DNA of 64,000 nt from Tardiphaga sp. Lineage in GTDB: Bacteria; Pseudomonadota; Alphaproteobacteria; Rhizobiales; Xanthobacteraceae. The stretch covers positions 1-64,000 of the forward strand of contig JASBVG010000037.1 of assembly GCA_030147505.1 (NCBI GenBank), in the 5' to 3' direction. Position numbers and translations under genes: made by a program. Positions within the stretch are counted from its first letter, which is position 1, and every line of letters begins with the position of its first letter. This document shows positions 9,591 to 15,097 of the stretch, piece by piece. Under the pieces are notes generated by a model that ran no database searches, had not been told where the DNA came from, and was given only the letters and a program-made list of their open reading frames with translations.

Positions 9591-10409
9591 TCAACCGCCA
9601 GCTGCAAGACGGTCGGCGAAATACCCGATGGTCTTGCGATAGATCGTAGCCCTGTTCCACTCGCGCATGGCCTCGAAATTGGCGGTGCCTTCACCATAAG
9701 GCTGACCGCCCTTGAAGCCTGCGGTCTTCAGCAGGTTGGCGGTGGAGGCCAGCACGTCCGGCACCGAGTGCCTGAGATCGACATGGCCGTTGCCGTCGAA
9801 GTCGACGCCATACTTGATATAGCTCGACGGCAGGAACTGGGTCTGGCCGAGTTCGCCGGCATAGGCGCCGACGAGATCCGACTGCGGGAGATCGCCGCGC
9901 TGCAGGATCTTCAGCGCCGCCAGCAGCTCACCTTGAAAAAGCTCGGTGCGGCGGCAATCATGCGCCATGGTGGCGAGGGTACGGATCACCGGCATCTTGC
10001 CGATATCGCCCTTGCCGAAATCGGACTCGAGACCCCAGATCGCCACCACGATTTCAGGCGGCACGCCGAAGCGCTGCTCGATGCGCGACAGCAGCGAGGC
10101 GTGGCGCTGCATCATCGAGAGGCCCATCTTGATGCGCCCGGGGCCGACGCGCGTCGCCACATATTGCTCGAAGGTCTTGTTGAAGGTGCCGCGCTGGCGG
10201 CGATCGAAGGACAGCACCGCCTGATCCTGGGTGACACCGGCGAAGGCCTGCTGGATCACGCCCTGCGAGATGCCGGCCGCGGCAGCCTCTTGCGACATCT
10301 GCGCGACGAAACCCTGAAAGTCGCCGCCGCATCGGGCGGCGTAGGATGGAGTGGCAATGGCAGCGGAAGCAATCGAGAGAGCGGCAATGGCGGCGAATCG
10401 AAACGACAT
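9591..10409 (-). CDS. Lytic murein transglycosylase, MltB family
   Basis: 272 residues with a signal peptide (about 1-25, AAIAALSIASAAIATPSYAA). The enzyme cleaves the MurNAc-GlcNAc bond of peptidoglycan to leave 1,6-anhydroMurNAc. The catalytic glutamate is E128 in AIWGLESDFGKG. Further family blocks are LSFDRRQRGTFNKTFEQYV, GAYAGELGQTQFLPSSYIKYGVDFDGNGHVDL and NLLKTAGFKGGQPYGEG. No lipobox is seen, so the product is a soluble periplasmic form. I start at 10409 (GCAGGA upstream); the frame runs on to 10658 but that extension is low-complexity and crosses the folded element. Confidence 0.9.
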   Translation of the reverse strand: MSFRFAAIAALSIASAAIATPSYAARCGGDFQGFVAQMSQEAAAAGISQGVIQQAFAGVTQDQAVLSFDRRQRGTFNKTFEQYVATRVGPGRIKMGLSMMQRHASLLSRIEQRFGVPPEIVVAIWGLESDFGKGDIGKMPVIRTLATMAHDCRRTELFQGELLAALKILQRGDLPQSDLVGAYAGELGQTQFLPSSYIKYGVDFDGNGHVDLRHSVPDVLASTANLLKTAGFKGGQPYGEGTANFEAMREWNRATIYRKTIGYFADRLAAGG

Positions 10410-10538
10410 GAAAATCCTGCCCGGTTGCGGTTGCGCGAGTGTGGCATGACGGATGTGTCGGAACAACGGCGCCTTCTCGTTCCTGGCGCGTGAAAACGCG
10501 TTCTCGCGGCGCCCATGGCGTCCGAGGTGTGAGTATTT

Positions 10539-10868
10539 CTCCCCAAACACATGAGGGGAGGTGGCACGCCGCAAGGCGCACTTGGTAGCACTTGACGCGA
10601 TCGGTGCGCACTGGATCGCCAGTGCTGGCCGGCCGCGCAACGCCTTACGGCGCGCCACCGCGACGTTCTTTCTGGCCGAAGGACCGTTCTTCCGGGCAAA
10701 GGCCGTTGACCCAACCGGGGTCCGGCAGTTTCCTGCCTTTCGCCAGTGCCACGTCCAGCCGCGTTAGCGGCAGACCCCCGTAGTGGGGTCGGACGGTTAC
10801 CCCCGACCACCCGAGTGCAAAGGGATGCGTGGTCCCCCTGCCCGCAGGCGCCGCATCCTGCCCCACTC
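10539..10868 (-). other. Highly structured 330-nt noncoding element (candidate RNA)
   Basis: Part of a 704-base gene-free stretch (10410-11113). The element is packed with nested helices: CTCCCC/GGGGAG (10539-10544/10555-10560); a 19-bp arm pair 10560-10578/10641-10659 enclosing AGCACT/AGTGCT and GCGATC/GATCGC (10587-10626); GGCAG/CTGCC (10724-10737); a junction CGTCC/GGACG (10752-10756/10791-10795) holding two hairpins (GCCGC gtta GCGGC and GACCCC/GGGGTC); and GAGTG/CACTC around GGATGCG/CGCATCC (10813-10868). In the 19-bp arm the two mismatches are A-C on the plus strand but G-U wobbles on the minus strand, so a minus-strand RNA is favoured. Short ORFs across it lack domains and ribosome sites. 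It may be a standalone RNA, a 5' leader of the transglycosylase gene, or a folded repeat. Confidence 0.55.
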
Positions 10869-10940
10869 AAAGACGCCTCATGAGAGCGCCCCTCGTGAAC
10901 AAGACGAGAGTGATATGGCGAAAGATGGGAATTTTATCAA

Positions 10941-10955
10941 GAACAAATAAAGAAC
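10941..10955 (-). promoter_or_regulatory. LexA-like (SOS) box GTTC-N7-GTTC
   Basis: On the minus strand the site reads GTTCTTTATTTGTTC, the alphaproteobacterial LexA consensus with an AT-rich centre. It overlaps an AT-rich promoter-like stretch (TAAAAT just downstream) and points toward the folded element at 10539-10868. An eight-base core like this is expected about twice by chance in 64 kb counting both strands, so support is modest. Confidence 0.35.
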
Positions 10956-10993
10956 GATATCGCGCGGATGCGCTGCCCGCCACGCGCTCCAAC

Positions 10994-11094
10994 TGTCATC
11001 CCCGCGAAAGCGGGGATCCAGTAAACGCAATATCTTCGGACTAATCACCGAAGCCAGTGTCTACTGGATTGCCCGGTCAAGCCGGGCAATGACA
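10994..11094. repeat. Composite palindromic repeat (REP/BIME-like)
   Basis: A 101-base nested palindrome: outer TGTCAT/ATGACA, then hairpins CCCCGCgaaaGCGGGG and GCCCGGtcaaGCCGGGC, with TCCAGTA/TACTGGA between them and an inner TTCGG/CCGAA. This is the arrangement of dispersed intergenic repeats in Bradyrhizobium-type genomes. It lies just after the isovaleryl-CoA dehydrogenase stop codon. Confidence 0.8.
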
Positions 11095-11113
11095 AACGAG
11101 TATGCGGCTGCGC

Positions 11114-12286
11114 CTAGCCGCTCTTCGCAAACAGCTCCCGCCCGATCAGCATGCGCCTGATCTCGCTCGTGCCGGCGCCGATCTCGTACAGCTTCGCATC
11201 ACGCAGCAGGCGCCCGGTCGGATAGTCGTTGATATAGCCATTACCGCCGAGCAGCTGGATCGCATCGAGGGCGCATTGCGTGGCGCGCTCGGCCGCATAG
11301 AGGATCGCGCCGGCTGCATCCTCGCGCGTGGTCTCGCCGCGGTCGCAGGCTTTTGCCACCGCATAGACGTAGGCACGCGAGGCGTTCATCGTGACATACA
11401 TGTCGGCGACCTTGCCCTGCACGAGCTGGAAATTGCCGATCGGCTCGCCGAACTGCTTGCGCTCATGCACATAGGGCAACACCACATCCATGCAGGCCTG
11501 CATGATACCGAGCGGGCCGCCAGATAGCACCGCGCGTTCATAATCGAGGCCGGACATCAGGATGTTGACGCCCTTGCCGACGGCGCCGAGCACATTTTCT
11601 TCCGGCACTTCGCAATCGGTGAAAACGAGTTCGCACGTATCCGAGCCACGCATGCCGAGCTTGTCGAGCTTTTGCGCGGTCGAGAAACCCTTCATCCCCT
11701 TCTCGATGATGAAGGCGGTGATGCCGCGAGGGCCGCCATTGGGATCGGTCTTGGCATAGACGATCAATGTCTCGGCGACGGGACCATTGGTGATCCACAT
11801 CTTGCTGCCATTGAGGATGTAGCGATCACCCTTCTTGTCGGCGCGGGTCTTCATCGACACGACGTCGCTGCCGGCTCCGGGCTCGGACATCGCCAGTGAG
11901 CCGACATGCTCGCCCGAGATCAGGCCTGGCAGATATTTGCGCTTCTGCGCATCGCTGCCGTTGCGGCGCATCTGGTTGATGCAGAGATTGGAATGCGCGC
12001 CATAGGACAGGCCGACCGACGCCGAAGCGCGCGACACTTCCTCCATGGCGATGACATGTTCGAGATAGCCGAGCCCTGCCCCGCCATACTCTTCCTCGAC
12101 CGTGATACCATGCAGGCCGAGCTCGCCTAGCTTGGGCCACAGGTCGATGGGAAACTGGTTGTTCCTGTCGATGGCGTCGGCGCGCGGCGCGATCTCATTC
12201 TGCGCGAAATCGCGCACGGTCTCGCGGATCGCTTCCGCGGTCTCGCCGAGATCGAAGTTAAACATGTGTTGGGCGTTCGGGATCAT
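11114..12286 (-). CDS. ivd: Isovaleryl-CoA dehydrogenase
   Basis: 390 residues, the family length. The FAD enzyme oxidises isovaleryl-CoA to 3-methylcrotonyl-CoA in leucine breakdown and passes electrons to ETF. The catalytic base in this subfamily lies in the [20 protein letters not shown] block (E250), a feature that separates isovaleryl-CoA dehydrogenase from medium-chain enzymes. Other blocks are [34 protein letters not shown] and [34 protein letters not shown]. The ATG at 12286 has GGAGG seven bases upstream. The usual partners (methylcrotonyl-CoA carboxylase, 3-methylglutaconyl-CoA hydratase) are not adjacent; it is divergent from the CYP153 pair. Confidence 0.92.
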
Positions 12287-12448
12287 CGGGCGGCCTCCGG
12301 TCGTCTCTAAATTATTGCGCGGCACGCGCGCATTTACCCCATTGAAGACAGCAAATGCGCTGGCAAATCAACCTTTTCGGCACGTCCGAAAGTTGTAGTC
12401 GCGCTTGCGTCGATCCACATTCCGGCATCTAATTAGACGCAATAAAGA

Positions 12449-12502: not shown

Positions 12503-13795
12503 ATGCACGGGACAATTGAGACCAGCCGCGCCGAATCCGACCACGCCGAGTCTGAACTCGCACGCCGCCAGCGCCGCGCACGCGACGCCGCCTACACCAC
12601 GCCGCTCGAAGACTTCGATCCGGGCAATCCCGAACTGTTCCGCGACGATACGTTCTGGCCCTACTTCGAGCGCCTGCGCCGCGAGGAGCCGGTGCACTAT
12701 TGCCGCGACAGCATGTTCGGGCCGTACTGGTCGGTGACCAAATACAACGACATCATGTCGGTCGAGATCAATCACAGCACATTCTCATCGGCAGCGGCAT
12801 TCGGCGGCATCACCATCCGCGACGCCGGCGTGCAGTTTCGCCGGCCGATGTTCATCGCCACCGACCCGCCACATCATTCCGCCCAACGCAAGACCGTGGC
12901 GCCGATGTTTGCGCCGAATCATATGGACGAACTCGCAGGACTGATCCGCGAGCGAACCTCAGCGGTGCTCGATGCCCTGCCCCGCAACGAGACCTTCGAC
13001 TGGGTCGACCGGGTTTCCATCGAACTGACGACGCAGATGCTGGCGACCTTGTTCGATTTTCCGTGGGAGGAACGGCGCAAGCTGACGCACTGGTCCGATG
13101 TCGCCACCATGCTGCCGCCGACACCCGAAGCGGAAGCGCAGCGACAGAAGGAACTGCGCGAATGCGGCGAGTTCTTCGGTCGGCTGTTCCAGGAGCGCAT
13201 GAATGCGCCGCCGAAGAGCGATCTGCTGTCAATGATGGCGCATAGCGACGCAACACGACATCTCGATCCGGAAAGCTTCCTCGGCAATATCATCCTGCTC
13301 ATCGTCGGCGGCAACGACACCACGCGCAATTCGATGTCCGGCGGCGTCTATGCGCTGAACCGGTTTCCGGAGCAGTACGACAAGCTGCGCGCCAATCCGG
13401 CACTGATCGAGAGCATGGTGCCGGAGATCATCCGCTGGCAGACGCCGCTCGCGCATATGCGGCGCACCGCGATCGCCGATACCGAACTCGGCGGCAAGCA
13501 GATCAAGAAGGGCGACAAGGTCGTGATGTGGTACGTCTCCGGCAATCGCGACGAGGAGATGATCGACCGGCCGGACGAATTCATCATCGACCGCGAGCGC
13601 CCGAACCGCCACCTCTCCTTCGGCTTCGGCATCCACCGCTGCGTCGGGCTTCGCCTCGCCGAACTGCAACTGAAGATCGTGTGGGAAGAAATCATGAAAC
13701 GCTTTGAGCGCATCGAAGTGGTGGATGAACCACACCGGGTCTTTTCCAGCTTCGTGAAGGGCTACGAGACGCTGCCCGTCCGTATCCCCGGCTAA
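12503..13795 (+). CDS. Cytochrome P450, CYP153 family (first copy)
   Basis: 430 residues. CYP153 enzymes hydroxylate the terminal carbon of alkanes, fatty acids or related chains using ferredoxin and ferredoxin reductase. The heme ligand is C380 in [12 protein letters not shown], the ExxR pair is E308/R311 ([14 protein letters not shown]) and the oxygen-activating I-helix is [17 protein letters not shown] (264-281). The blocks [21 protein letters not shown] and [23 protein letters not shown] are characteristic of CYP153. No membrane anchor, so cytosolic. The next gene, 30 bases on, is a close paralogue and the two are probably one operon. No ferredoxin or reductase is encoded nearby, so redox partners must come from elsewhere. 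Substrate not determinable. Confidence 0.9.
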
Positions 13796-13825: not shown

Positions 13826-15097
13826 ATGAACATCCAGAACCGTATCGATCCCGACAAGGCGACCCGCGACCGCATCGCACGCGAGCTCGCCTATTCGATG
13901 CCGCTGAAGGATTTCCACCCCGGCGCGCCAAAGCTGTTCGCCACCGATACGCTGTGGCCGTTTTTCGAGCGGCTGCGCGCGGAGGAGCCGGTGCATTACT
14001 GCACCAATGCACCGATAGAACCCTACTGGTCGGTGACGAAGTACAACGACATCATGAAGGTAGATACCAGCCACGGCATCTTCTCGTCGGACTCAAAGCT
14101 CGGCGGCATCGGCATTCGCGACGAGCCGGAGGGCTATAGCTGGCCGAGCTTCATCTCCATGGACGAGCCGAAGCACACGCCGCAGCGCAAGACCGTGACA
14201 CCGATGTTCACCCCCGAACATCTCGACGAACTGGCCAAGCTCATCCGCACACGCACCTGCAAGGTGCTGGACGGGCTGCCGCGCGGCGAGACGTTCGACT
14301 GGGTCGATCGCGTCTCGATCGAACTGACCACGCAGATGCTGGCAACCTTGTTCGACTTCCCGTTCGAGCAGCGCCGCAAGCTGACGCGCTGGTCCGACGT
14401 CGCGACTGCCCTGCCCAAGAGCGGCATCGTGTCGTCCGAGGAGGAGCGTCGCCGCGAGATGGATGAGTGCGCCGCCTATTTCCAGAATCTCTGGAATGAG
14501 CGGGTCAATTCCGAACCGCGGAATGATCTCATTTCCATGATGGCGCACAGCGATGCCACGCGCTTCATGGACAAGGACAATCTGATGGGCAACATGATCC
14601 TGCTCATTGTCGGCGGCAACGATACCACCCGCAACACGATGACCGGCTCGGTGCTCGCGCTGAACGAGAATCCCGACCAGTATCAGAAGCTGCGCGACAA
14701 TCCGGCGCTGATCGAAACCATGGTGCCGGAAGTGATCCGCTGGCAGACGCCGCTGGCGCATATGCGCCGGACAGCATTGCAGGATACCAATCTGGGCGGA
14801 AAGGAGATCAGGAAGGGCGACCGCGTGGTGATGTGGTACGTCTCCGGCAATCGCGACGACGAAGTGATCGAGCGGCCGAATGAATTCATCATCGACCGCA
14901 AACGCCCGAAGATTCATCTGTCATTCGGTTTCGGCATACACCGCTGCGTGGGCATGCGCCTGGCGGAGTTGCAATTGAAGATCGTTTGGGAGGAAATACT
15001 GAAACGGTTCGAGAACATCGAAGTTGTGGGGGAACCCAAGCGCGTGTATTCGAGCTTCGTCAAAGGCTACGAGCATCTTCCGGTCCGTATTACGTAA
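13826..15097 (+). CDS. Cytochrome P450, CYP153 family (second copy)
   Basis: 423 residues, colinear with the preceding P450 over its whole length and matching it residue for residue in long blocks, so the pair arose by tandem duplication. The heme cysteine is C374 in [18 protein letters not shown], the ExxR pair lies in [15 protein letters not shown] and the I-helix in [16 protein letters not shown]. The copies differ most in the substrate-recognition region near residues 85-110 (KLGGIGIRDEPEGYSWPSF against [20 protein letters not shown]) and in the loop around 195-215, which suggests different substrate ranges. No redox partner follows; an acyl-CoA dehydrogenase gene begins 60 bases later. 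Confidence 0.9.
   Translation: MNIQNRIDPDKATRDRIARELAYSMPLKDFHPGAPKLFATDTLWPFFERLRAEEPVHYCTNAPIEPYWSVTKYNDIMKVDTSHGIFSSDSKLGGIGIRDEPEGYSWPSFISMDEPKHTPQRKTVTPMFTPEHLDELAKLIRTRTCKVLDGLPRGETFDWVDRVSIELTTQMLATLFDFPFEQRRKLTRWSDVATALPKSGIVSSEEERRREMDECAAYFQNLWNERVNSEPRNDLISMMAHSDATRFMDKDNLMGNMILLIVGGNDTTRNTMTGSVLALNENPDQYQKLRDNPALIETMVPEVIRWQTPLAHMRRTALQDTNLGGKEIRKGDRVVMWYVSGNRDDEVIERPNEFIIDRKRPKIHLSFGFGIHRCVGMRLAELQLKIVWEEILKRFENIEVVGEPKRVYSSFVKGYEHLPVRIT

Follow-up and report, generated by a model that had tools for sequence, protein, structure and literature searches.

What, if anything, is encoded in the gene-free gap ahead of a lytic transglycosylase-like gene of Tardiphaga sp.? In the window analysed here, which is the whole 64,000-nucleotide stretch of DNA, the gap measures about 700 nt and separates an acyl-CoA dehydrogenase-like gene (11114-12325, minus strand) from the lytic transglycosylase-like gene (start at 10409, minus strand), both named from translations read by eye. 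An earlier note had pointed to multiple stems at 10539-10868 and had proposed that they belong to an undescribed noncoding RNA of the minus strand, to a long regulatory leader of the transglycosylase gene or to a large folded repeat. Comparison of homologous sequences supports the first of these readings, on the basis of covariation, an asymmetry of wobble pairs, a promoter-like sequence and the lack of any Rfam match above threshold. The last reading is also true, the element occurring in many dispersed copies, and is one thing with the RNA reading.

Extent of the element and its genomic setting

Alignment of the copies delimits a conserved dispersed unit of about 459 nt on the minus strand, with approximate ends, the 5' end near 10955 and the 3' end near 10497. 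The interval first described lies inside this unit and is too short, covering 330 of its nucleotides.

10497 to 10955, minus strand: whole conserved element (promoter, RNA and 3' terminal hairpin), defined by the extent of similarity among copies.
10503 to 10526, minus strand: 3' terminal hairpin CTCGGACGC..GCGCCGCGAG, common to several copies of classes B and C (see below); letters checked.

Full-length copies in two genomes, G013 and G010, start sharply at GTTC-N7-GTTCTTGACA (ATTC in one of 20), and in most of them the last feature is the hairpin CTCGGACGC..GCGCCGCGAG. In L042, L075 and L305, which belong to classes A and B and to different genera, the usual terminal hairpin gives way to another 3' end, GACGGCGTCCCCGCGCCG..AAACAA.AGGGG. 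Just upstream of the element in the window, at 10998-11093, lies a second dispersed palindromic repeat (TGTCATTGCCCGGC..CCAGTA..GGGGATGACA); repeats resembling it precede copies L005, L009, L014, L016, L072 and L074, and other copies have different hairpin repeats. Elsewhere in the window, adjacent similar plus-strand ORFs at 12503-13795 and 13826-15097 read, from translation alone, as tandem cytochrome P450 genes.

When the same genome (134 contigs) was searched at the DNA level, with 40 of 61 candidates scored, there were 23 matches including the window copy, the other 22 being 74-89% identical to it. This is far from the hundreds of identical copies that, according to the earlier note, would mark the element as nothing but a dispersed repeat. 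The element breaks assemblies: 11 of the 23 matches have a contig end within about 25 nt.

The element lies on the same strand as the transglycosylase-like gene and its 3' parts come within about 95-145 nt of that gene's ATG (10409), as one would expect of a riboswitch-like element or long 5' leader belonging to the gene. The other copies tell against such a role, as the ORFs 3' of them vary (read by eye, we take them to be ruvC, an amidase, a TetR regulator and a thiolase), and in G012 the same locus lacks the element. We consider the leader reading highly improbable.

Compensatory changes and choice of strand

The stems reported in 10539-10868 are present. As minus-strand RNA the interval folds at -176.9 kcal/mol (z -3.26), below dinucleotide shuffles, none of 100 being as low. 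The plus strand reaches -160.8 kcal/mol (z -3.30, again 0/100); since the z values are alike on both strands, single-sequence folding gives no choice between them. The features distinguished by comparing copies are the following, those labelled P being helices.

10856 to 10904, minus strand: P1 (10897-10904 with 10856-10864), with hairpin P2 in its loop; P1 is 95.2% paired, with both sides changed at 6 of 8 pairs.
10842 to 10857, minus strand: GATGCGGCGCCTGCGG motif, the invariant core in both alignments by construction, as the row pattern includes GCGGCGCYTGCG.
10817 to 10843, minus strand: P3 hairpin; both sides changed at 7 of 7 pairs.
10676 to 10806, minus strand: long-range helix P4 (10800-10806 with 10676-10682), which closes the central domain; found by the structure-free scan, both sides changed at 5 of 7 pairs.
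10752 to 10795, minus strand: P5 junction with P6 (10773-10790) and P7 (10758-10771); both sides changed at 5 of 6 pairs in P6, 2 of 4 in P7 and 0 of 4 in P5.
10684 to 10694, minus strand: CGGAAGNACGG motif, present in many copies; required of the rows of A2 and so invariant there by construction.
10560 to 10660, minus strand: P12 long arm (10641-10660 with 10560-10578), with an apical hairpin at 10607-10626; 97.2% and 86.4% paired, both sides changed at 14 of 25 pairs.
10889 to 10894, minus strand: GAGGGG, 5' strand of the proposed pseudoknot P0; complementary to 10553-10558, by inspection.
10553 to 10558, minus strand: CCCCTC, 3' strand of the proposed P0; also pairs locally in a hairpin at 10539-10560.

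Two MAFFT alignments were built from sequence alone: A1, of 30 5' domains, and A2, of 39 full-length sequences. Covariation scores were 0.385 in A1 against 0.077-0.110 in slid controls, and 0.360 in A2 against 0.072-0.110, and none of 500 shuffles reached the score in either case; because the helices were picked on the same alignments that were used for counting, the comparison with slid controls is partly favourable by construction. In A2, 94.8% of 2434 cells are paired and changes on both sides occur at 40 of the 64 pairs. Compensatory changes in homologues, for which the earlier note had proposed to look and which are the mark of a structured noncoding RNA gene, are thus found, with at least one such pair in eight of nine helices; P5, which has none, is the exception. 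The 19-bp arm pair singled out at the start (10560-10578 with 10641-10660) receives strong support of this kind. The CGTCC/GGACG junction at 10752-10795 came through in part: it is kept in 97.4% of cells, and its closing helix P5 is nearly invariant, so that covariation speaks neither for nor against that helix. As to the two hairpins inside the junction, P6 covaries strongly, P7 in two of its four pairs. P2 is only 78.3% paired in A1.

The rows of both alignments are chosen representatives, each matching the search pattern; of 48 dereplicated sequences, nine were left out of A2 because their 3' ends were uncertain or their junction was of another type. That GGGGCG, GAGRCGTY and GCGGCGCYTGCG do not vary, nor CGGAAGNACGG in A2, is therefore by construction; the helices scored for covariation lie outside these motifs. 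A helix scan made without a prior structure ranked P3, the long-range helix P4, P6, P12 with its apical hairpin and outer P1 near the top, and also listed weaker competing helices. RNAalifold applied to 40 mixed copies gave a poor consensus. Mechanical ORFs cross the element region, but indels between copies are often of 1-2 nt.

The strand is indicated by the mismatches. Over 64 pairs in 39 sequences, the cells read as minus-strand RNA contain 257 G-U, 29 A-C and 97 other mismatches, and the excess of G-U over A-C places the RNA on the minus strand. An argument first made from the two mismatches of a single arm pair thus generalises.

Inspection of the sequence suggests a further, probable interaction in which GAGGGG, close to the 5' end, would pair with CCCCUC at the 3' end. 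A compensated case (L159) and a class B variant are in keeping with this pseudoknot. The best complement lay elsewhere, often in the 3' strand of P12, in about 25 of the 37 loci listed, and in part of A2 the 3' strand of P0 is one column out of register.

These data bear on the possibility that the element is a DNA-level repeat, a palindromic mosaic or a MITE- or BIME-like unit whose folding is incidental. It is indeed dispersed, has other hairpin repeats alongside and acts as a recombination substrate (see below). Such a reading is nonetheless already contradicted by the asymmetry between G-U and A-C, and it also has to face the compensatory changes, seen at 40 of the 64 pairs, a conserved promoter-like sequence and ends at which no terminal inverted repeat is seen by eye. 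We regard it as improbable; the RNA is very probably the selected product of the element.

A promoter-like sequence and a LexA-box-like repeat

Upstream of the RNA, the copies share elements of the kind expected of a promoter.

10935 to 10940, minus strand: -35-like TTGATA (TTGACA in most copies); from the copy alignment, letters checked.
10912 to 10917, minus strand: -10-like CATATC, 17 nt from the -35; the RNA would be expected to start near 10905.
10941 to 10955, minus strand: GTTCTTTATTTGTTC, a LexA-box-like GTTC-N7-GTTC, which occupies this position in 19 of the 20 full-length copies of G013 and G010; letters checked.

Under a loose definition made for this analysis, a -35/-10-like pair is found within 70 nt before GGGGCG in 63 of 85 dereplicated copies and in none of 85 control windows further upstream; shuffles gave a mean of 4.2 and a maximum of 9. 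TTGAC itself occurs in 57 of the 85 copies (4 in the control window), and in 52 of these 57 it stands 47-50 nt before GGGGCG. Coding-like pattern matches had been removed before this count (L089, L096, L104, L140, L173 and L177); the first four of these had also been left out of the ORF clustering described below.

Directly before the -35 lies the direct repeat GTTC-N7-GTTC, which we take to be the alphaproteobacterial LexA box. It is present in all 14 full-length G013 copies, in five of the six G010 copies and in the class B and C copies L073, L075, L079 and L295. In each of four Tardiphaga genomes the main lexA locus carries one GTTC-N7-GTTC, which reads on the opposite strand and lies upstream of the estimated start by about 170-190 nt; the motif is missing from three secondary LexA-like loci. 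One of the four genomes, G001, has the repeat at lexA and none at its elements. It is likewise absent from the divergent copies L065, L067, L069 and L080, from class B copies L081 and L082, from G000 copies L003, L007, L013, L014 and L021-L023, and from twelve loci (L029-L032, L034-L041) that belong to the other Tardiphaga clade or to different genera. Taken together, the sequences make it reasonably likely that the element is under LexA control in this Tardiphaga clade, through the candidate box.

At L010, L028, L053 and L063, in four species, copies lie upstream of what reads by eye as ruvC-ruvA. The ruvC and ruvA genes are SOS genes elsewhere.

Distribution and divergent classes

A covariance model, R1, was built on the 5' domain. 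It found 20 copies in the genome of the window (150 of 3499 candidates scored) and 16, 9, 17, 16, 18 and 7 copies in six single-contig relatives. With 15 candidates scored per genome, 110 of 198 genomes of the family matched, representing 32 of 47 genera; the number of copies in these 110 has a median of 8 (counting capped at 15), with at least four in 90 and a single one in nine. Outside the family, 11 of 297 genomes of the order matched, two of the 11 being Tardiphaga. In a sample of 385 genomes of the class only the genome of the window matched, which is weak evidence of absence, as seven candidates were scored per genome. A DNA search of relatives gave a similar picture, with matches in 25 of 61 genomes: all 18 of the genus (own included), six of 19 others of the family and, among 24 genomes representing further families of the order, one. 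A pattern scan of named genomes matched at least 104 stretches; among the matches listed, likely true copies by eye belong to Tardiphaga, Afipia, Rhodopseudomonas rhenobacensis, Pseudolabrys, Pseudorhodoplanes, Enterovirga and Methyloceanibacter.

Besides copies of the type found in the window (class A), G010 and G013 hold elements of classes B and C, with a similar promoter, mostly the same 3' hairpin and a different interior. By eye these retain UCCCGCCUC/GAGGUGGGA-like P1 strands, GAGAGGGG, GGAUGCGG and the long 3' arm, and for this reason we read them as distant homologues. Class B DNA matched 25 of 100 family genomes, in 12 of 47 genera (five candidates scored per genome), many of the matches being partial. 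For one genus, g45, R1 gave no class A match in the eight genomes listed; in three of its genomes class B DNA matched through the 3' arm alone, and no 5' motif turned up in g45 loci L307 and L308, nor in L302 and L311. One could envision a superfamily of pseudoknotted RNAs of about 400 nt whose classes A, B and C share P1, GAGGGG, GGATGCGG, the long 3' arm and the ends and differ in their interiors. Such a superfamily would be maintained at high copy number throughout Hyphomicrobiales; recombination would have homogenised it in some genomes, and in one clade of Tardiphaga the whole set would have come under LexA control. As a whole, this extended picture is a tentative one that we think unlikely to hold in full.

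Comparison with known RNAs and repeats

Searched against Rfam 15, as the earlier note had suggested, the window contained no family at threshold anywhere along its length; within 10400-11120 a single match appeared at E values up to 5, its score falling well short of threshold. Fifteen further loci gave seven matches up to E=2, of which the only one above threshold was a tRNA beside the element of L073. In L079, a flanking GGGTGGGG-type repeat (1308-1478 and 2107-2272) scored about 41 bits against Rfam MIR1858 (threshold 137), probably by chance or composition. Text searches of the literature, including 13-mers in full text and with preprints and supplements outside their scope, returned no description of the element.

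The large orphan structured RNAs OLE, GOLLD, ROOL and HEARO are the obvious comparison. Like them, the element is several hundred nucleotides long, has many helices and has a function that cannot be read from its neighbours; unlike them, it has no Rfam 15 family at threshold, a distinction made through the Rfam search and not by direct comparison. Rfam holds a HEARO model and a group II model. Neither HEARO (IscB omega-RNA) nor a group II intron was matched in the window, in 10400-11120 or in the 15 further loci.

Other repeats and RNAs of related bacteria resemble the element in part. Br-REP1 and Br-REP2 of Bradyrhizobium are dispersed intergenic repeats that can appear in transcripts (PMC5082802); they differ from the element in that their consensus is a palindrome of about 20-40 nt, as against a unit of about 459 nt with its own promoter-like sequence. 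The same source describes the sRNAs BjsR5, R6, R7 and R10 as present in two to four imperfect copies in Bradyrhizobium genomes (PMC5082802), which likens them, by description and not by sequence, to an RNA gene in several imperfect copies. The Rhizobiales-1 motif, a candidate from the order of the element, is listed in Table 1 of its source as 'ambiguous' as an RNA and probably not cis-regulatory, with no Rfam entry (PMC2864571); compared by description only, it may overlap with the element. Rhizobiales-2 (RF01723) did not match the element in the Rfam search.

Possible mobility and concerted evolution of the copies

A close rival to a host function is a selfish reading, in which the element would be mobile but non-autonomous, would depend on its RNA structure in order to spread and would bring the host no benefit, like solo omega-RNA/HEARO or a SINE-like sequence. 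The copy number where it is present is in keeping with this (at least four copies in 90 of the 110 matching family genomes, median 8, though nine have one), as is the fact that, in some genomes, classes A, B and C have their 5' and 3' ends in common and differ inside. Close relatives also show empty sites: the site occupied in the window is empty in G012, and a leuD-citE site (names by eye), occupied in G013, is empty in G000 and G010. At both empty sites the sequence consists of other repeats, in which neither an insertion junction nor a target duplication can be read.

No partner protein was found at a fixed place. When the ORFs around 100 loci, many of them short, were clustered by blastp, the largest clusters consisted of ORFs inside the element and the largest outside it drew on seven loci with scattered offsets and strands; some clusters of three to five loci look like shared neighbourhoods. 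An autonomous copy with a partner gene, considered as a candidate, was rejected, none appearing in these clusters. The Y1 (IS200/IS605/RAYT) tyrosine transposase was found in none of seven genomes, as against five of 14 control genomes. The -35 and -10 lie upstream of the RNA start, and a retro-copied RNA would lose its promoter. Many positions are, moreover, common to different species, with flanks mostly 85-93% identical, and one is common to Tardiphaga (L034, L038, L039) and a second genus (L040). An orientation of copies by replichore was considered and dropped: in five complete genomes the two-arc agreement was no better than in shuffles, of which 198, 914, 899, 1689 and 1864 of 2000 reached it.

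Positions common to several species allow the history of the copies to be followed. In 14 of 19 same-position pairs each element resembles its best paralogue more closely than it resembles the other member of the pair; three pairs are mixed and two show the reverse. This comparison lacks the G013 copy L051, which is absent from the alignment, and for several pairs the link depends on a single flank. Thirteen of the 14 pairs involve G013; of the five pairs without it one fits, two are mixed and two show the reverse. In G013, six copies have 94-100% identity with a seventh, a feature that recent selfish spread would also account for, and the near-identical inverted copies L028 and L051 of this genome have exchanged flanks relative to L010 and L053. 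From these alignments, homogenisation or recent replacement is clear in G013 and less so elsewhere. That it is clear mainly there slightly lowers our confidence in a trans-acting host RNA and slightly raises that in the selfish reading, which we judge a serious possibility, though at less than even odds.

rRNA operons are multi-copy RNA genes that evolve in concert. The element resembles them in that G013 copies are more alike than they are to their counterparts in other species, and in that copies mark flank exchanges; it differs in having no known role, in occurring in 7-18 copies in complete genomes and in that its homogenisation is unclear outside G013.

A possible mode of action

The reading that we favour, with confidence just short of even, is that of a multi-copy RNA with a host function, acting in trans as a ribonucleoprotein or regulator. 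Trans action seems the most likely mode because one structure and one promoter have been kept, no fixed partner gene was found and the copies are homogenised in at least one genome, G013. Each copy would have a sigma-70-type promoter of its own and would yield a minus-strand transcript of about 370-400 nt that would fold into P1-P12, probably with the GAGGGG/CCCCUC pseudoknot. The RNA would then act in trans, its dose mattering. In the Tardiphaga clade, where the promoter abuts the LexA-box-like direct repeat, transcription would be expected to stay low until DNA damage removes LexA, and the family is thus possibly SOS-inducible in this clade. Recombination between copies has swapped flanks and probably spreads sequence among them by gene conversion.

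A large covarying RNA with a promoter-like sequence, present in 7-18 copies per complete genome, appears to have been missed by the family library even though 110 of 198 genomes of the family match. As a dispersed set of RNA genes that may be under SOS control and that, in at least one genome, evolves in concert, the element lends itself to direct test. If the superfamily reading were true, these bacteria would possess a DNA-damage-induced, gene-dosage-amplified RNA machine without known counterpart.
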